Shown one piece after another: positions 13,602 through 44,888 of a DNA stretch of 64,000 nucleotides (the first letter of the stretch is position 1; every line of letters begins with the position of its first letter). This stretch comes from Micromonospora eburnea (lineage in GTDB: Bacteria; Actinomycetota; Actinomycetes; Mycobacteriales; Micromonosporaceae), in assembly GCF_900090225.1 (NCBI RefSeq), contig NZ_FMHY01000002.1, positions 1,488,001-1,552,000 on the forward strand, written 5' to 3'. The notes under the pieces are model-generated. The model was not told where the DNA came from. It worked only from the letters and a program-made list of their open reading frames with translations, and did no database searches. The translations under genes and the position numbers were made by a program.

Positions 13602-13662
13602 GACGGTCACCTCTGCCGGGTGGGGCCCGGCCGCCGGGGCCGGGACGGGTGGTCACTCACTC

Positions 13663-13704
13663 GGGGCGTCTTGGCCTGACCGGGTACGCCCACCACTCGT
13701 CCGG
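13663..13704 (-). ncRNA. guanidine-III (ykkC-III) riboswitch
   Basis: On the minus strand the leader reads CCGGACGAG, a short variable stem, GTACCCGGTCAGG, then CAAGAC and the closing stem. These blocks match, in order, the conserved core of actinobacterial guanidine-III riboswitches such as the crystallised Thermobifida fusca example. The stem GGGC/GCCC is a compensated replacement of GCGCC/GGCGC, and the CCGG pseudoknot half is retained. It lies about 60 nt upstream of the ATG of the SMR exporter. A GC hairpin (CCCGGCC/GGCCGGG) between the aptamer and the ribosome site may be part of the switch. Aptamer identity is seen directly; the expression platform is inferred. Confidence 0.92.
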
Positions 13705-13780
13705 GGCGGCAGTGCCGCCGCAGCCGACGTTAGCACCGCCACAGCCGACCACCGCGGTGAGAAGGGCCACCATCGCTGGA

Positions 13781-37972: not shown

Positions 37973-38439
37973 GGCAGCCGAGCCTGGTCCTGGTGATCGC
38001 CGTCGGGGTGCTCGTCGCCACCGGCGTCACGCTCCTGCTGGAGCGGAGCCTGTCCCGCATCCTGCTCGGCGTCATCCTGCTGGGCAACGGGGTGAACCTG
38101 CTGATCCTGGTCGGTGGCCGGCCCGGTGGCGCGCCGCTGGTCGGCACCGGGCCGGCGGACCGGATGAGCGACGCGCTGCCACAGGCCATGGTGCTCACCG
38201 CAGTGGTGATCACCTTCGGGCTGACCGCGTTCCTGCTCGCCGTCGCCTACCGGAGTTGGTATCTCAGCGGCGACGACGAGGTGCAGGACGACCTGGAGGA
38301 CCGGCAGATCGCCCGGCTCGCCGAGCGCAACGAGGTGTCCGCGGCGGACCTCGGCGGTGAGGGGCCGGACGAGGACCCGGAGCAGGTGGACCCGGAGCCG
38401 GAGCTGCGCCGGCTCCGCCGCCGCGGGGAGCAACCGTGA
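37969..38439 (+). CDS. mrpC: Mrp antiporter subunit C
   Basis: 156 residues related to NuoK, with three membrane helices: LVLVIAVGVLVATGVTLLLE, RILLGVILLGNGVNLLILVG, and DALPQAMVLTAVVITFGLTA. The acidic, charged C-terminal extension of ~45 residues (DDLEDRQIARLAERNEVSAA) is long for MrpC and predicted cytosolic. GTG 37969 overlaps the mrpA stop (GTGA) and its own stop overlaps mrpD the same way, so translation is coupled along the operon. Confidence 0.93.
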   Translation: MRQPSLVLVIAVGVLVATGVTLLLERSLSRILLGVILLGNGVNLLILVGGRPGGAPLVGTGPADRMSDALPQAMVLTAVVITFGLTAFLLAVAYRSWYLSGDDEVQDDLEDRQIARLAERNEVSAADLGGEGPDEDPEQVDPEPELRRLRRRGEQP

Positions 38440-39947
38440 CGGCCTCGGCGCTGGTGCCGTTGCCGGTGGTGGTGCCGCTGCTCGGTGCCGCGCTGACCCT
38501 GGTCCTGGGCAACCGGCCCAGGTTGCAGCGCTCGATCAGTGTGCTCGGCCTCTCCGCCACCCTGCTCGTCGCGGTGCTGCTGCTGGTCGAGGCGTACCGG
38601 CACGGGCCGGTGGTGGTCCAGGTGGGCGGCTGGCCCGCGCCGGTCGGCATCGTGCTGATCGCCGACCAGTTGGCGGCGCTGCTGCTGGTGGTCTCCTCCG
38701 CGGTGACCCTCTGCGTGCTGGTCTACTCGGTCGGCCAGGGCCGGTGGGAGGTCGGCGAGCGCACGCCGGTGAGCATCTTCCACCCCACCTATCTGGTGCT
38801 CACCGCCGGCGTGACCAACGCCTTCCTGGCCGGTGACCTGTTCAACCTGTACGTCGGCTTCGAGATCCTGCTGTCCGCGAGCTTCGTGCTGATCACGCTC
38901 GGCGGCACCGAGACCCGGATCCGCACCGGCCCGACGTACGTGGTGGTCAACGTCCTCTCCTCGATGATCTTCCTGACCGGGCTGGGCCTGGTGTACGCGG
39001 CCACCGGCACCCTGAACATGGCCCAGCTCGCCGGCCGGCTGGACGCCCTGCCGGGCGGCGTACGCCTGGGGTTGCAGCTCATGCTGCTGCTCGCCTTCGC
39101 CATCAAGGCGGCGGTCTTCCCGGTCTCGGCCTGGCTGCCGGACAGCTACCCGACCGCGCCCGCCCCGGTCACCGCGGTCTTCGCCGGCCTGCTCACCAAG
39201 GTCGGCGTGTACGCGATCATCCGCACCGAGACCCTGCTCTTCCCCGGCGGGCAGGTCGCCGGCCTGCTCCTGGTGGTGGCCGGGCTGACCATGCTGGTCG
39301 GCATCCTCGGCGCGGTCGCCCAGTCCGACATGAAGCGGCTCTTCTCCTTCACCCTGGTCAGCCACATCGGCTACATGATCTTCGGGGTGGGGTTGGGCAG
39401 CGTCGCCGGCCTGGCCGGGGCGATCTTCTACGTGGTCCACCACATCACCATCCAGACCACCCTCTTCCTGGTCGCGGGCCTGGTCGAGGAGCGGGCCGGC
39501 AGCACCGACCTGCGGCGGCTGGGCGGGCTGTCCCGGCTCGCCCCGATGCTCGCCGTGCTCTTCTTCGTGCCGGCGATGAACCTGGCCGGCATCCCGCCGT
39601 TCTCCGGATTCCTCGGCAAGCTCGGTCTGCTCCAGGCCGGCGTGGCGGCCGGCGGGGTGCTGCCTGCCGTACTGGTCGCCGCCGGGACACTGACCAGCCT
39701 GCTGACCCTCTACACCGCCTCCCGGGTGTGGAGCCTCGCGTTCTGGCGGGCGCCCCAGCAGGCCACCCCGCACCCCGCCGTACGGCTGCCCGGGCTGATG
39801 GTCGGCGCCACCACCGCCCTGGTGGCGCTCGGCGTGGCGCTGACCCTGGTCGCCGGGCCGCTGTTCCGGGTCAGCGTGGACGCCGCCACCGACCTGCGTG
39901 ACCGCACCCCGTACGTGCGGGCCGTCCTGCCGGCGGGCGCGCCGTGA
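38436..39947 (+). CDS. mrpD: Mrp antiporter subunit D
   Basis: 503 residues of the NuoN/MrpD type with about 14 helices. Key parts are LFNLYVGFEILLSASFVLIT with the TM5 glutamate, AFAIKAAVFPVSAWLPDSYP with the proton-path lysine, and AGLLTKVGVYAIIRTETLLF. GTG 38436 overlaps mrpC and the stop overlaps mrpE, each by 4 bp. It works with subunit A as one of the two antiporter-like modules in the heptameric-type complex in the cytoplasmic membrane. Confidence 0.95.
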   Translation: MTASALVPLPVVVPLLGAALTLVLGNRPRLQRSISVLGLSATLLVAVLLLVEAYRHGPVVVQVGGWPAPVGIVLIADQLAALLLVVSSAVTLCVLVYSVGQGRWEVGERTPVSIFHPTYLVLTAGVTNAFLAGDLFNLYVGFEILLSASFVLITLGGTETRIRTGPTYVVVNVLSSMIFLTGLGLVYAATGTLNMAQLAGRLDALPGGVRLGLQLMLLLAFAIKAAVFPVSAWLPDSYPTAPAPVTAVFAGLLTKVGVYAIIRTETLLFPGGQVAGLLLVVAGLTMLVGILGAVAQSDMKRLFSFTLVSHIGYMIFGVGLGSVAGLAGAIFYVVHHITIQTTLFLVAGLVEERAGSTDLRRLGGLSRLAPMLAVLFFVPAMNLAGIPPFSGFLGKLGLLQAGVAAGGVLPAVLVAAGTLTSLLTLYTASRVWSLAFWRAPQQATPHPAVRLPGLMVGATTALVALGVALTLVAGPLFRVSVDAATDLRDRTPYVRAVLPAGAP

Positions 39948-40567
39948 CCGGCGACCTGCCCGGCCGCCCGGTCGGCGACGGACCGCCGCCGGAGCCCCGC
40001 CCGCCCGCCATCGTCGGGCGGGGCGGGCGGTGGCGGGACCAGGCCGTGGCGCTCGGCTGGCTGGTGGTGGTCTGGCTGCTGCTGTGGGGCGATCTCTCCT
40101 GGGGCAACCTGGTCGGCGGACTCGTCGTCGGCGCCGCCGTGCTGATCTTCTTTCCGCTCCCGCCGGTCACCTTCGGCGGCCGGCTCCGCGCCGGCGCGTT
40201 GCTGGTCCTCGCGGTCACCTTCGTCCGGGAGCTGGTCAGCGCCAGCGTGCACGTCGCGGCCATCGCGGTCCGTCCCGGCTACCGGCCGCGCGGCGCGGTC
40301 ATCGCGGTGCCGCTGCGGATCCGCACCGACCTCAACCTGGCCCTCACCGCCGAGCTGATCTCCCTGGTCCCCGGCACCCTGATCCTCGATGTGGACCGCG
40401 ACCTGGGCGTTCTCTACGTGCATGTCCTAGAGGTCCTTCGCCCCGAGGACCTGACCGACAGCCGCAACCGCGTCCTCACCGCCGAACGGCGCATCGTCCG
40501 CGCCATCGGCTCCCCCGAAGAGGTACGCCAGCTCGGCGTCGAACCCGACAGGAGGAATTCCACGTGA
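39944..40567 (+). CDS. mrpE: Mrp antiporter subunit E
   Basis: 207 residues. A proline-rich cytosolic N-terminus (PPPEPRPPAIVGRGG) precedes two or three membrane helices (ALGWLVVVWLLLWG, LVGGLVVGAAVLIFFPLP). The MrpE signature region runs VPLRIRTDLNLALTAELISL then VPGTLILDVD, ending with YVHVLEV. GTG 39944 overlaps mrpD by 4 bp. Downstream mrpF starts on a 4-bp overlap and is preceded by an AGGAGG ribosome site inside mrpE. Confidence 0.93.
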   Translation: MTGDLPGRPVGDGPPPEPRPPAIVGRGGRWRDQAVALGWLVVVWLLLWGDLSWGNLVGGLVVGAAVLIFFPLPPVTFGGRLRAGALLVLAVTFVRELVSASVHVAAIAVRPGYRPRGAVIAVPLRIRTDLNLALTAELISLVPGTLILDVDRDLGVLYVHVLEVLRPEDLTDSRNRVLTAERRIVRAIGSPEEVRQLGVEPDRRNST

Positions 40568-40830
40568 CCACCGTCCTCGCCGTCGCGCTGACCGTGCTCC
40601 TCTCGGTCACCGCGCTGCTCGCCCTGACCCGTATCTACCGGGGGCCGTCGCTGCTCGACCGCGTCGTCGCCGCCGACCTGCTGCTCGCCACCATGCTCAG
40701 CGCGGTCGGCGCGGAGGCGGCGGTCAACCGGCACGCCACCACGCTGCCCGTGCTGGTGGTGCTCTCCCTGCTCGGCTTCGTCGGATCGGTCTCCCTGGTC
40801 CGCTTCGCCGTACGCGAGGAGACCCAATGA
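40564..40830 (+). CDS. mrpF: Mrp antiporter subunit F
   Basis: 88 residues with three helices. The MrpF core YRGPSLLDRVVAADLL contains the conserved Asp, followed by a second helix and VVLSLLGFVGSVSLVRF. GTG 40564 has ACAGGAGGAA upstream. Its stop overlaps the mrpG ATG by 4 bp. Confidence 0.93.
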   Translation: MTTVLAVALTVLLSVTALLALTRIYRGPSLLDRVVAADLLLATMLSAVGAEAAVNRHATTLPVLVVLSLLGFVGSVSLVRFAVREETQ

Positions 40831-41156
40831 GCCTCCTCGCCGACTGGCTGGGCGCGGCCTGCCTGCTGGCCGGGGCGCTGCTCGCCCTGGCCGCCGGGAT
40901 CGGCGTGCTGCGTTTCCCCGACGCGCTGGGCCGGATGCACGCGGCCACCAAGCCGCAGGTGCTGGGCGTGCTGGTGCTCCTGGTCGGGCTGGCGCTGCGC
41001 CTGCGTACGCCCGCGGACCTGGGCATGATCGCGTTGGTGGCGATCTTCCAGCTGGCCACCGCTCCGGTCGCGGCCCAGATGATCGGCCGGGCCGCCTACC
41101 GGTCCGGGCGCATCGACCGCGACCTGCTGGAAGTCGACGAGTTGGCCGGGCGGTGA
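40827..41156 (+). CDS. mrpG: Mrp antiporter subunit G
   Basis: 109 residues, three helices. The MrpG motif GIGVLRFPDALGRMHAATKP is followed by a hydrophobic pair of helices with LATAPVAAQMIGRAAYR. ATG 40827 overlaps mrpF (ATGA). It is the last gene of the Mrp operon. The next gene has its own promoter at 41212, so the operon probably ends here, although no strong hairpin is visible. Confidence 0.93.
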   Translation: MSLLADWLGAACLLAGALLALAAGIGVLRFPDALGRMHAATKPQVLGVLVLLVGLALRLRTPADLGMIALVAIFQLATAPVAAQMIGRAAYRSGRIDRDLLEVDELAGR

Positions 41157-41211
41157 ACCGGACGGCGGGGAGGCTTCCCGGCACCCTCAGCGGACGTCCA
41201 GCCAACGCCGA

Positions 41212-41217
41212 TAGAAT
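41212..41217 (+). promoter_or_regulatory. -10 element TAGAAT giving a leaderless upstream ORF
   Basis: TAGAAT is followed by six nucleotides and then ATG at 41224, so transcription should begin on that ATG. No ribosome site precedes it. It drives the short leader ORF and the CNNM gene. Confidence 0.55.
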
Positions 41218-41223
41218 GGCCGC

Positions 41224-41325
41224 ATGATCGACTCTTCTGCCCAGGAGGGCAGCAGTAGCCAGCCGGGTCCGGCCCGGCAACCCCTCACCCCGACGACCCC
41301 GGGAGCCCTGAACCTCCCGTGCTGA
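41224..41325 (+). CDS. 33-residue proline-rich leader peptide (uORF)
   Basis: A short open frame MIDSSAQEGSSSQPGPARQP followed by LTPTTPGALNLPC, with six prolines in 33 residues. Its TGA (41323-41325) lies seven nucleotides inside the following gene, whose GTG is 41319, so translation is coupled. Three hairpins overlap it: 41237-41252, 41262-41278 and 41300-41319. The last one pairs the only GGGAG that could serve the CNNM gene. The arrangement (leaderless start, Pro-rich peptide, hairpins, ion transporter downstream) resembles regulatory leader peptides such as MgtL of Salmonella mgtA. Regulation by Mg2+ or proline is inference; translation is unproven. Confidence 0.55.
   Translation: MIDSSAQEGSSSQPGPARQPLTPTTPGALNLPC
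41300..41319 (+). promoter_or_regulatory. hairpin sequestering the CNNM ribosome site and start
   Basis: CGGGAG (41300-41305) pairs with CTCCCG (41314-41319) across an 8-nt loop. This hides the GGGAG sequence and the first base of the GTG start. A ribosome translating the leader ORF would open it. Confidence 0.45.
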
Positions 41326-42674
41326 TCCTCGTCGGTCTCGTTCTCATCATCGTGCTCACCGCCGCCACCGGCTACTTCGTGGCCCAGGAGTTCGGTTACG
41401 TCGCCGTGGACCGGGGCAAGCTCAAGCAGCTCGCCGACGGGGGCGACCGGGCCGCAGCCCGGGCCCTGGAGGTGACCGGCCGGCTCTCGTTCATGCTCTC
41501 CGGCGCCCAGCTCGGCATCACCGTGACCGCGCTGCTGGTCGGTTACGCCGCCGAGCCGTACCTGGGCGCCGGGCTGGCCGACCTGCTCGGCGTCGCCGGG
41601 GTCTCCTCCGGCGTCGCGCTGCCGCTGTCGGTGGCCCTCGCCCTGATCATCGCCACCGTGGTGCAGATGGTGCTGGGCGAGTTGGCCCCGAAGAACCTGG
41701 CCATCGCCCGCGCCGAGCCCATCGCTCGGGCGTTGGCCCGGTCCACCCTCGGCTACCTGCGGATCGCCGGGCCGTTGATCACCCTCTTCGACCGGGCCGC
41801 CGTCCGGCTGCTGCGTCGGGTCGGCATCGAGCCGATCGAGGAGTTGCCCAGCGGTGCCACCCCGAAGGACCTGGAACAGATCATCGCCGAGTCCCGGGAG
41901 GAGGGGCACCTCGACGCCACGATGTCCGACCTACTCGACCGGGGCCTCGACTTCCGCGAGCTGACCGCCGGGGAGGCCATGGTCCCCCGGGTCGACGTGC
42001 ACACCGTACGGGCCGACGAACCGGTCAGCCGGGTCGTCGAACTGCTCGACACCGGCCACTCCCGGTTCCCCGTCCGGGGCGCCGAGGGGGTCGACGACCT
42101 GGTCGGTGTGGTCGGCATCGCCGACGTGCTCGGGGTGCCACCCGCCGAGCGGGCCACCACCCGGGTCGCGGCGGTGGCCGTACCGCCGCTGCTGGTGCCG
42201 GAGACGCTGCCGTTGCCGACGGTGCTGGACCGGCTCCGGGTCGGGCACCGGCAGCTCGCCTGCGTGGTTGACGAGTACGGCGGCTTCGCCGGCGTGATCA
42301 CGCTGGAGGACATCGCCGAGGAACTGGTCGGGCCGATCCGGGACGAGGACGACCCGCCCGAGCGGGCCCCGGCGCGGCAGGAGGACGGTTCCTGGGTGGT
42401 GCCCGCCCGCTGGCGGATCGACGAGGTCGCCGACAGCACCGGCATCGCGCTGCCCGAGGCCCCCGAGTACGACACCCTCTCCGGGCTGGTCATGCGGGAG
42501 CTGGGCCGGGTGCCCGAGGTGGGTGACCGGCTGGAGATCAGCCTCGGCGTCGACGGTGACGAGTCCGACGTCGAGCCGCGTGCGCTGGTCGAGGTGCTGG
42601 CCGTGGACCGGCACGTGGCCGACTCCGTCCGGCTCCGGATGGCCGCCGCCGAACACGGGGAGGAGGCGGCATGA
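41319..42674 (+). CDS. CNNM/CorC (HlyC) family transporter 1
   Basis: 451 residues. A DUF21/CNNM membrane domain holds about four helices: VGLVLIIVLTAATGYFVAQE, LSFMLSGAQLGITVTALLVG, and VVQMVLGELAPKNLAIARAE with the conserved acidic/Pro motif. Next is a CBS pair (AMVPRVDVHTVRADEPVSRV; CVVDEYGGFAGVITLEDIAE), and then a C-terminal CorC/HlyC transporter-associated domain with EYDTLSGLVMRELGRVPEVG. Members mediate Mg2+ or Co2+ efflux/transport; 'hemolysin' is a legacy name. The GTG 41319 start is coupled to the upstream leader ORF. A second CNNM gene follows after 67 bp, and heteromeric action is possible. Confidence 0.9.
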   Translation: MLILVGLVLIIVLTAATGYFVAQEFGYVAVDRGKLKQLADGGDRAAARALEVTGRLSFMLSGAQLGITVTALLVGYAAEPYLGAGLADLLGVAGVSSGVALPLSVALALIIATVVQMVLGELAPKNLAIARAEPIARALARSTLGYLRIAGPLITLFDRAAVRLLRRVGIEPIEELPSGATPKDLEQIIAESREEGHLDATMSDLLDRGLDFRELTAGEAMVPRVDVHTVRADEPVSRVVELLDTGHSRFPVRGAEGVDDLVGVVGIADVLGVPPAERATTRVAAVAVPPLLVPETLPLPTVLDRLRVGHRQLACVVDEYGGFAGVITLEDIAEELVGPIRDEDDPPERAPARQEDGSWVVPARWRIDEVADSTGIALPEAPEYDTLSGLVMRELGRVPEVGDRLEISLGVDGDESDVEPRALVEVLAVDRHVADSVRLRMAAAEHGEEAA

Positions 42675-42741: not shown

Positions 42742-43806
42742 ATGACGCCCGGTTTCGCGTTGTTCTTCTCGGTCGTGCTGCTGGCGCTCAACGGCTTCTT
42801 CGTGGCGGCCGAGTTCGCCCTGGTGGCGGCCAAGCGGTACCGCCTGGAACAGCTGGCGGTCGGCGGCGGCCGGGCGGCCCGCGCGGCGCTGGACGGCGTC
42901 CGTGAGCTGTCCCTGATGCTGGCCGGGGCGCAGCTCGGCATCACCCTGTGCACGCTGGGGCTGGGCGCCCTGGCCGAGCCGGCGATCGAGCGCCTGCTCC
43001 GCCCCTTGCTGCACGCCGTCGGGCTGCCCGCGGCGGCGAGCCACGCGGTGGGGCTGCTGATCGCCCTGGCCCTGGTGACCTTCCTGCACCTGGTGGTCGG
43101 CGAGATGGCCCCGAAGTCGTGGGCGATCACCGACGCGGAGCGCTCGGCGATGCTGCTGGCGCTGCCGTTCCGGGCCTTCGCCCGGGTCGCCCGTCCGGTG
43201 CTGTCCGCGCTGAACGCGTTGGCCAACGCGGTCCTGCGGCTGGTCGGCGTACGCCAGCAGGACCAGCTCGCCCAGGTGCACGGCCCGGACGAGCTGCGCA
43301 TCCTGCTGGAGCAGTCCCGCGAGCACGGGCTGCTCGGCGCCGAGCAGCACCAGATGCTGACCAGCATGCTGGAGTTGCAGGGCACCACGGTGGCGCAGGT
43401 GATGGAGCCGTTCGACCGGATCGTCACGGTCCGGCGGGACGACGACGCCGAGCGGATCGAGCACGTGTCCCGCGACAGCGGCCGTTCCCGGCTGGCCGTC
43501 GTCGACGCCGGTGGCGAGGTCTGCGGCCTGGTCCACGTACGGGAGGCGGTCCGCGCGGTCACCAACGGCCGTGCGGCGACCGCGGGCGAGCTGATGACCC
43601 CGGCGTTCGTCCTGCCCGCCGGGGCCTCGGTCACCGAGGCGGTGGCGGCGATGCGCGGTCGGCAGGCCCAGTTGGCGCTGGTCCGCAACGGCGGCGGCCC
43701 CACGCGGCCGATCGGCTTCGTGGCCCTGGAGGACCTGCTGGAGGAGGTCATCGGCGAGTTCGACGACGAGACCGATCCGGTGCCCCGGGGCCGCCGGATG
43801 CGCTGA
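42742..43806 (+). CDS. CNNM/CorC (HlyC) family transporter 2
   Basis: 354 residues. It has a DUF21 membrane domain (LFFSVVLLALNGFFVAAEFA, LSLMLAGAQLGITLCTLGLG, LHLVVGEMAPKSWAITDAE) and a CBS pair (VMEPFDRIVTVRRDDDAERI; IGFVALEDLLEEVIGEFDDE). It lacks the C-terminal CorC domain present in the first paralogue, a common asymmetry in actinobacterial tandem pairs. ATG 42742 follows GAGGTGG; longer upstream starts add only Arg/Pro-rich sequence. Probably cotranscribed with the first CNNM gene and ended by the nested hairpins at 43828-43873. Confidence 0.9.
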   Translation: MTPGFALFFSVVLLALNGFFVAAEFALVAAKRYRLEQLAVGGGRAARAALDGVRELSLMLAGAQLGITLCTLGLGALAEPAIERLLRPLLHAVGLPAAASHAVGLLIALALVTFLHLVVGEMAPKSWAITDAERSAMLLALPFRAFARVARPVLSALNALANAVLRLVGVRQQDQLAQVHGPDELRILLEQSREHGLLGAEQHQMLTSMLELQGTTVAQVMEPFDRIVTVRRDDDAERIEHVSRDSGRSRLAVVDAGGEVCGLVHVREAVRAVTNGRAATAGELMTPAFVLPAGASVTEAVAAMRGRQAQLALVRNGGGPTRPIGFVALEDLLEEVIGEFDDETDPVPRGRRMR

Positions 43807-43873: not shown

Positions 43874-43961
43874 TGTCGGCAACGGACGCCCGGAGGCGTG
43901 TCCGGGCGCTGGCCGGGAAAGCGTGGCGCGCGGGTCGGCAACCGGGACGGGAGGACGCGGG

Positions 43962-44888
43962 GTGCCGCTGACCGGGGTGTCGTCGGAGTCCGTCTGGACC
44001 GGGCTCTCGGTGAGCACCACCCTGCCCAATCCCAGCACCCGGCCGGGCCTGCGGCTGCCCGGCCGGGTGACCCTCACCGCGGCGGGTGAGGACGTGCCGG
44101 TCCGGCACGTTCGGCTCGGGCTGGTCGCCCAGGTCGAGCCGGAGGAACCCGACTCGCCCCGCCGGCTGGTGCAGTACCACCAGGTGCCGGTCGCCGGCCG
44201 GTTCGTGGTGCCGGCCGGGCGGCGGCGCGCGGTCGACTTCGCCTTCCCGCTGCCCTGGGAGACCCCGGTGACCATCTTCGGCGGGGTGCCGCTGATGAGC
44301 CTGCGCACCGGGCTGCGTACCGAGGTGTCGGTGGATCCCGATCTGGACCAGGGCGCGATGGTGCCGGTCTTCGTGCACCCGCTCCCCGTCCAGCAACACG
44401 TGCTCGCCGCGCTGGACACCCTCGGCTTCGTCATGCGCCAGGCGGGCCTGCAGCAGGGCCGGCTGCCCGGGGTGGAGCAGGAACTACCGTTCCACGAGCG
44501 GCTCGGCTACTGGGTGGCGCCGCTGTACGCCGGTCCGATCACCGAGCTGGAAGTGATCTTCGTGACCAACGCGGCGGGACTGGAGGTGCTGCTCTGGCTG
44601 GACCGCCGGCTCGCGCTGGCCGGGGTCACCCACCAGAGCATCAGCCGGTTCCGGGTCTGGCACACCGGGGTCGGGCAGCGGGACTGGGTCGCCACCGTGG
44701 ACGGCTGGCTGCGGCACGCGATCAACCGGCACGCGGCGGCCGCCGCGCACGCCGACTGGTCCGCCGCGATCCGGGAGTCGGCACACGTCAGCCGCCGCCC
44801 GGACGAGCCGGTCGCCCCCGGCTACGGCCTGGGCGGCACAGCCGGCGGCCCGGGCATCGGCGGCGGCGGTGCCGGCGACGGCACCTGA
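43962..44888 (+). CDS. Spo0M-family protein
   Basis: 308 residues of the SpoOM (sporulation-control) family, arrestin-like beta-sandwich proteins that influence sporulation in Bacillus and are common in actinomycetes. Blocks are SVWTGLSVSTTLPNPSTRPG, LRLPGRVTLTAAGEDVPVRH, VVPAGRRRAVDFAFPLPWET, and VSVDPDLDQGAMVPVFVHPL. A longer C-terminal part has LEVLLWLDRRLALAG and a Gly-rich tail. GTG 43962 follows GGGAGG. In a filamentous, sporulating actinomycete a developmental role is plausible but unproven. It converges on the LysE gene with a repeat element between. Confidence 0.85.
   Translation: MPLTGVSSESVWTGLSVSTTLPNPSTRPGLRLPGRVTLTAAGEDVPVRHVRLGLVAQVEPEEPDSPRRLVQYHQVPVAGRFVVPAGRRRAVDFAFPLPWETPVTIFGGVPLMSLRTGLRTEVSVDPDLDQGAMVPVFVHPLPVQQHVLAALDTLGFVMRQAGLQQGRLPGVEQELPFHERLGYWVAPLYAGPITELEVIFVTNAAGLEVLLWLDRRLALAGVTHQSISRFRVWHTGVGQRDWVATVDGWLRHAINRHAAAAAHADWSAAIRESAHVSRRPDEPVAPGYGLGGTAGGPGIGGGGAGDGT

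Follow-up and report, generated by a model that had tools for sequence, protein, structure and literature searches.

A conserved, probably leaderless leader ORF overlapping the start of a CNNM/CorC transporter gene in Micromonospora and related actinomycetes

Described leader systems and the CNNM locus

How bacteria control Mg2+ export is far less clear than how they control its import. CNNM/CorC proteins are linked to Mg2+ efflux or tolerance, and passages of PMC12421838 report that high Mg2+ induces corC and mgpA, and call the regulation of both genes unclear. The same passages describe YoaL of enterobacteria, which, like the leader reported here, is a small leader ORF that overlaps the beginning of a cation-protection gene with a CorC domain; translation of that gene, which high Mg2+ induces, is raised by the YoaL start codon. 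Those passages describe no leaderless start or codon-hairpin core for YoaL, which comes from a different phylum, and the target of YoaL has TerC membrane domains whereas the target here has CNNM. MgtL of mgtA is also a short leader ORF by an Mg2+ transporter gene with early acidic and proline residues, but according to excerpts of PMC11282234 it serves an importer through Rho-dependent termination, whereas here the gene codes for a probable exporter, the stop overlaps that gene and the proline count is not conserved. The frameshift stem-loops of dnaX and HIV are alike in that the stem begins at +12, counted from the first base of the P-site codon (sections of PMC7282821 and PMC8861025), and dnaX shares a 5-nt linker after the A-site codon (PMC7282821, same section). 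Compared with the systems in those sections (PMC7282821, PMC8861025), the present leader has no slippery site, its hairpin P2 is a short stem of 6-7 bp, and the proposed action is a brake and not frameshifting. The mycobacterial Mbox-pe20 uORF is likewise an actinobacterial small uORF in a regulatory leader (PMC12810186, in part), although the leader here gave no M-box match.

The window, which is the whole stretch of 64,000 nucleotides from Micromonospora eburnea that was analysed, contained a leader uORF of 33 codons at 41224..41325 (+), with six prolines in the ORF translation. It runs from an ATG at 41224 to a TGA at 41323-41325, which overlaps the GTG start at 41319 of a CNNM/CorC transporter gene (41319..42674, +; Pfam CNNM, CBS and CorC_HlyC), the coupled target. 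A -10-like box, TAGAAT, lies 6 nt upstream of the ATG at 41212..41217 (+), and the uORF is probably leaderless. The box with its spacing, the 33 codons with six prolines and the overlapping stop had been pointed out in an earlier note made from the DNA letters, and all were found as described. A second CNNM gene (42742..43806, +; Pfam CNNM and CBS) is the downstream neighbour, and a Spo0M-family gene (43953-44885, +) lies just 3' of both CNNM genes. Mrp-type Na+/H+ antiporter-like genes (38436-41156, +; Pfam Proton_antipo_M, MNHE and PhaG_MnhG_YufB) lie directly upstream of the leader. Elsewhere in the window, a guanidine-III riboswitch aptamer scored above the Rfam gathering score at 13660-13724 (-).

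Three hairpins were present in the predicted fold of the leader. P1 occupies 41237..41252 (+), pairing 41237-41242 with 41247-41252. P2 occupies 41262..41278 (+), with arms GCCGGGT (41262-41268) and GCCCGGC (41272-41278) around the loop CCG, and P3 occupies 41300..41319 (+), pairing 41300-41305 with 41314-41319 over GGGAG and the first G of the CNNM GTG. The fold had an energy of -39.2 kcal/mol (z -1.08), and 26 of 200 shuffles folded as well or better, so the energy by itself is not unusual. Comparison within the genus and with relatives marked a conserved core at 41245..41261 (+), which is codons 8-13 up to P2 (E-G-S-S-S-Q), the last base of codon 13 being the first base of P2. Codon 11 of this core, AGT (41254..41256, +), ends in U and is the A-site codon when P2 stands at +12 from the P-site codon 41251-41253.

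The arrangement was rare in the window. Of 38 long ORFs (24 plus, 14 minus), picked by a rule on length and codon composition, one, the CNNM gene, had a uORF of leaderless type that overlaps a possible start. The genome itself holds one copy of the element: one strong model match (48.5 bits) was followed by seven of 26.7 bits and below, which, when oriented and read, had no leaderless-type start and no CNNM gene. At the gathering score no family of Rfam 15 fitted the leader, the M-box included, and with E up to 10 a search of 41100-41420 gave two weak matches, both outside the uORF (41123-41194). A known riboswitch was rejected on the lack of an Rfam match, and an intrinsic terminator because no U-run was seen by eye in the leader. 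Mycobacterial polycysteine attenuator uORFs are leaderless and carry a run of cysteine codons, whereas no such run was present in the leader sequences of the genus and its relatives. Searches of the open-licence literature found no description of the element, and the conserved core was not found in the literature on mycobacterial uORFs covered by those searches. The leader belongs among leader-peptide systems and would represent a conserved class absent from Rfam 15.

Conservation in the genus and distribution beyond it

In a protein search of 101 genomes, each of the 61 from the same genus, M. eburnea included, proved to have a close CNNM orthologue. The uORF kept its ATG, an open frame and the stop over the CNNM start in 61/61, with 33 codons in 57 genomes and 34 codons in 4, and the stop ended 7 nt into CNNM (+7) in every member. 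Frame 0 was open in 61/61 and both other frames were closed in 61/61. The -10 box was near-invariant, T, A, A and T being fixed in 61/61 at four of its six positions, while the spacer to the ATG (6-7 nt) was variable. Bases 41224 to 41278 were mostly fixed in the genus alignment. The suggested check for synonymous constraint gave a clear answer: 16 of 18 third positions of uORF codons 1-18 were invariant, compared with 5 of 20 in the opening codons of CNNM (Mann-Whitney p = 0.0003, indicative only, as the sequences are related). Codons 19-33 were much freer than codons 1-18 and their amino-acid variety was the same as in the two other frames (59, 59 and 62), so the tail carries no sign of peptide constraint.

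P1 was paired at 6/6 positions in all 61 members, and all its pairs were invariant. The loss of the ORF or hairpins in close relatives, which would have spoken against the proposal, was looked for and not seen (ORF 61/61, P1 61/61), and all 61 members share a uORF of leaderless type, hairpins included, whose stop overlaps the CNNM start. The observation of the leader is real and far from chance, and a chance ORF is ruled out by this conservation. Three hairpins, with the last over GGGAG and the GTG, had also been pointed out in the note. All three fold in M. eburnea, P3 reaching the first G of the GTG, while P3 as drawn kept 6/6 pairs in 25 members, 5 in 9, 4 in 25 and 2 in 2. In predicted folds of -60..+30, GGGAG was paired and the GTG was touched by pairing in 58/61, so the hiding of the start region is general and holds for the genus as the note described it, but the exact P3 hairpin is not general and was rejected in that exact form as the conserved switch. 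The interpretation given in the note is partly supported; its emphasis on proline is not. The proline count was 3 to 7 in the genus and 1 or 2 in some relatives elsewhere, and proline-codon sensing was rejected as the core mechanism on this variation. In one same-genus genome, a different leaderless-type short ORF without the core (by eye) ended across the start of a CNNM paralogue (L068 in G003).

Outside the genus, two genomes of other families carried core-type peptides in the same place, one of them MSPDGCSTEPGLARP, and in seven other non-genus or paralogue loci from the protein search (L065-L071) the core was not seen. The searches were widened by a pattern with GCCGGGY fixed over 150 family genomes, by covariance models over 348 genomes of the order, 394 of the class and 150 of the family, and by a further scan of named genomes (17 stretches). 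The element was found in Actinoplanes, Dactylosporangium, Catellatospora, Planosporangium, Phytomonospora, Actinokineospora, Umezawaea and two actinobacterial bins, and also in Ornithinicoccus halotolerans (L208), genera which we take to lie in Micromonosporaceae, Pseudonocardiaceae and Micrococcales relatives. A c-di-AMP riboswitch aptamer was present elsewhere on the Ornithinicoccus stretch (L208, 2704-2849, +). The family model search matched 79 of 150 genomes and 24 of 44 genera at E up to 0.001, an overstated tally in which three genomes, all the matches of one genus, rest on false places (L234-L236) and not all other places were read. The order tally (220 of 348 genomes at E up to 0.05) contained many weak chance matches and was not used as a count. 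In the class, matches at E up to 0.001 came from 7 of 394 genomes. Three of them, the two outside the order (G510, G576) and one inside it (G267), resembled the core in letters but had neither a leaderless-type start nor a CNNM gene. On reading, 18 of 50 loci were dropped as false in the first set, and 2 (L167, L169), 7 (L180, L183, L185, L187, L188, L190, L191) and 7 (L226-L229, L234-L236) in three further sets of 20. The searches favour places near the known core, and distant versions may therefore be missed.

The overlap was constant at the CNNM-linked loci of the first set read, where the stop overlapped the start in 30/30 (26 at +7 and 4 at +1). Among 18 family genomes without a model match, 11 had no CNNM orthologue at E up to 1e-90. 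Of the other seven, five (L247-L251) had a leaderless-type uORF whose stop lay across the estimated CNNM start, one (L246) had such a uORF ending next to the CNNM start, and one (L252, a CNNM of 48% identity) had none by the same rule. The overlap was thus retained in five of these seven, so the coupling is more widely kept than the core. Three of these relatives, of genus g38 (L249-L251), had uORFs with an arginine-rich N-terminus; their hairpin sequences differ and fold ambiguously, and these hairpins were not counted.

Copies also stood before other genes. Two further copies in G125 preceded Spo0M genes (L108, L109), with the uORF open past the Spo0M start and no stop/start overlap, while in two genomes of genus g83 a copy lay about 450 nt before TerC and its uORF ended about 170 nt short. 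Simple overlap coupling therefore does not cover every copy, and the Spo0M and TerC copies may represent reuse of the module or a different wiring. The presence of Spo0M next to the CNNM pair in the window, together with the element on two G125 Spo0M genes, is a possible sign of a functional link between CNNM and Spo0M. At nine loci of several genera (L074, L102, L110, L152, L156, L158, L164, L212 and L219) a common string like ACCATACAGT-N-ACGTGCTA lay over the promoter upstream of the core, and may be an extended promoter or an operator.

The shared core, its reading frame and hairpin P2

The core was compared in 63 distinct elements, 61 of them from outside the genus (L100 and L101 inside), chosen by a pattern that fixed [AT]GT, the 5-nt linker and most P2 letters. 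It reads GAN GGN WGY AGT ANN NNG CCG GGY, that is [DE]-G-(C/S)-S-(T/S/P)-x-P-G, followed by the 3' arm of P2, and spans about 34 nt with one hairpin. As the search patterns fixed GCCGGGY, [AT]GT, the linker or most P2 letters, the invariance of those letters is partly due to selection. Pro-Gly lay under P2 in 61/63 elements and Pro-Val in two (L079, L080). A second core class, before another CNNM subfamily, has one codon fewer (DGSTxPG).

Candidate starts were all start codons, in any frame, that follow a TANNNT box by 5-8 nt. An open leaderless-type start in frame 0 was found in 53/63 distinct elements (51 of the 53 from outside the genus), at distances of 3, 6, 9, 12, 18, 21, 24 or 33 nt from the core, in steps of three in 53/53. 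In 11/63 there were candidates in another frame: GTGs close to the -10 box, 34-38 nt upstream, and in L113 a GTG at 10 nt. Three of the candidates were open (L155, L158, L219). In the 10 elements without a leaderless-type box, a GTG preceded the core by 21 nt, with GGAG or similar further upstream. Since the distance between start and core changes only by threes, the core is most simply read as codons, and since the third positions of AGT and CCG are fixed too, the RNA matters as well. In five elements the core stood directly after the start codon. P1 is impossible in the relatives where the core begins at codon 2, and was rejected as a universal part.

P2 was the constant hairpin. Its 3' arm was fully complementary in all aligned rows (27/27, and 39/39 in a second alignment), although the family search pattern did not include this arm. 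Three 35-nt cores (L083, L091, L093) were misaligned and left out of models R1 and R2, and their hairpins were complementary. U-A replaced G-C at pair 6 in two genera (with L233 and L243 included by hand), and the remaining pairs hardly varied; the covariation score, with one doubly changed pair, was reached by 1/500 and 9/500 shuffles in the two alignments. Covariation support for P2 is real but thin. The P2 loops were 3-6 nt long, which shifts the downstream frame and leaves the peptide beyond Pro-Gly unconserved.

The codon 5 nt before P2 was AGT in 61/63 elements and TGT in 2/63, in a selection that demanded [AT]GT. At covariance-model places, which were free to differ, it was also TAT (L230, L232, L239, L240) or AAT (L231), all ending in U. 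Such codons are rare in the five neighbouring genes, where 39 of 1629 codons ended in U and AGT occurred once against 20 AGC. The first base of P2 stood at +12 from the P-site codon before AGT in 63/63 elements, a spacing fixed by the search pattern, and also in the model-found places read, except L184, which has three extra nucleotides between AGT and P2. Sections of PMC7282821 and PMC8861025 describe stem-loops at this spacing as hindering A-site tRNA binding. In the portion of PMC8861025 consulted, 11 nt downstream corresponds to a first stem base at +12, translocation became faster as the HIV spacer grew to 12 and 13, and stem length mattered for the hindrance. The stems studied there (PMC8861025, same portion) did not include P2, and as P2 is short (6-7 bp), the result would carry over to it by inference.

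Some relatives had a compact arrangement. In L165, L168 and L171 a longer hairpin holds TTGTTGA, which is the uORF stop and the CNNM start, in its apical loop, and in L076, L237 and L238 the 3' arm of P2 has the CNNM GTG at its end. In these versions P2 thus covers or touches the very start to which a uORF ribosome has to come, and among the observations this points most strongly to the mechanism.

Proposed mechanism and rival explanations

Conservation, frame, overlap, hairpin spacing and the compact relatives are the basis for a reading that we consider probable, in which the leader is leaderless and translationally coupled, and a ribosome slowed at AGT opens P2 and finishes the uORF, after which CNNM is translated. 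The transcript would probably begin at the A of ATG 41224, to judge from the -10 geometry, and the ribosome would start there leaderless. As the 33-codon uORF is translated, codon 10 (AGC) would occupy the P site and codon 11 (AGT) the A site, with the first base of P2 at +12. A pause may occur at AGT, a rare, wobble-decoded codon met with a very short nascent chain. A ribosome going on would open P2, reach the stop over the CNNM start and reinitiate, so that CNNM translation would depend on completion of the uORF, to a degree set by the presumed coupling strength. Too long a stall or drop-off would leave CNNM off, perhaps also through Rho. Several observations count against this reading: the thin covariation in P2, the shortness of P2 given that stem length matters in PMC8861025, the three extra nucleotides in L184, the 10 elements without a leaderless-type box, the Spo0M and TerC copies that simple overlap coupling does not cover, and the arginine-rich N-termini of L249-L251, which do not fit a single peptide effect.

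One competitor, quite improbable in our assessment, is plain translational coupling which sets the CNNM level without sensing; the overlap is indeed more widely kept than the core, but such a device has no need for a near-invariant core and hairpin across genera. The fixed synonymous positions, the near-fixed P2 sequence and the AGT letters fixed across families would suit a metal- or metabolite-binding RNA aptamer of riboswitch type to which the ORF is secondary. This remains rather unlikely, given start-core distances in steps of three in 53/53, the in-frame loss of one codon in the second core class, a core of just about 34 nt with a single hairpin, and no Rfam match. A programmed frameshift that fuses the uORF peptide to CNNM is very improbable: uORF and CNNM overlap in different frames and the stem-loop stands at the dnaX spacing described in sections of PMC7282821, but the AGT site shows no slippery heptamer, the overlap is found 40 nt beyond P2 on its 3' side in the window, and at this overlap CNNM has a start codon of its own.

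An MgtL-type leader, where N-terminal acidic and proline residues destabilise the ribosome at low Mg2+ and P2 and AGT only add to the effect, is judged unlikely. The segments between start and core (pooled related sequences) contained 34% D+E+P against 15% in the five neighbouring genes, and 2% K+R against 8%, an enrichment that would allow for some ribosome destabilisation of the MgtL kind. According to excerpts of PMC11282234, MgtL makes use of IRD, which acts on short nascent chains, and the leader ORF YoaL overlaps the Mg2+-induced mgpA/yoaE in passages of PMC12421838. Against it as a general rule stand the five elements whose core follows the start codon directly, the unconserved proline count, and the three g38 relatives with arginine-rich N-termini; the fixed AGT and P2 spacing would also be left unexplained.

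Under the preferred reading of a coupled leader with a brake at AGT and P2, the signal may be intracellular Mg2+ or another divalent cation, with ample ion letting the ribosome pass and the exporter come on. Mg2+ sensing is plausible in view of the exporter target. Mg2+ is favoured because CNNM/CorC proteins are linked to its efflux or tolerance, corC and mgpA are induced by high Mg2+, and YoaL supports mgpA/yoaE translation (passages of PMC12421838). As CNNM is a probable exporter and MgtL serves an importer, the expected sign, on at high Mg2+, would be opposite to that of MgtL. The fuller proposal is tentative and, as a whole, somewhat doubtful: the ion level would set ribosome passage against drop-off, and hence access to the overlapping CNNM start, which is buried in the compact hairpins, with the module reused before TerC and Spo0M.

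If the proposed mechanism is true, its novelty would lie in a codon-plus-hairpin brake acting on a leaderless uORF. The element is a compact, sequence-defined and genetically tractable candidate for exporter control in actinomycetes, and it would offer a natural test case for a stem-loop at the mRNA entry and a wobble codon acting as a regulatory brake outside frameshifting, on leaderless messages.
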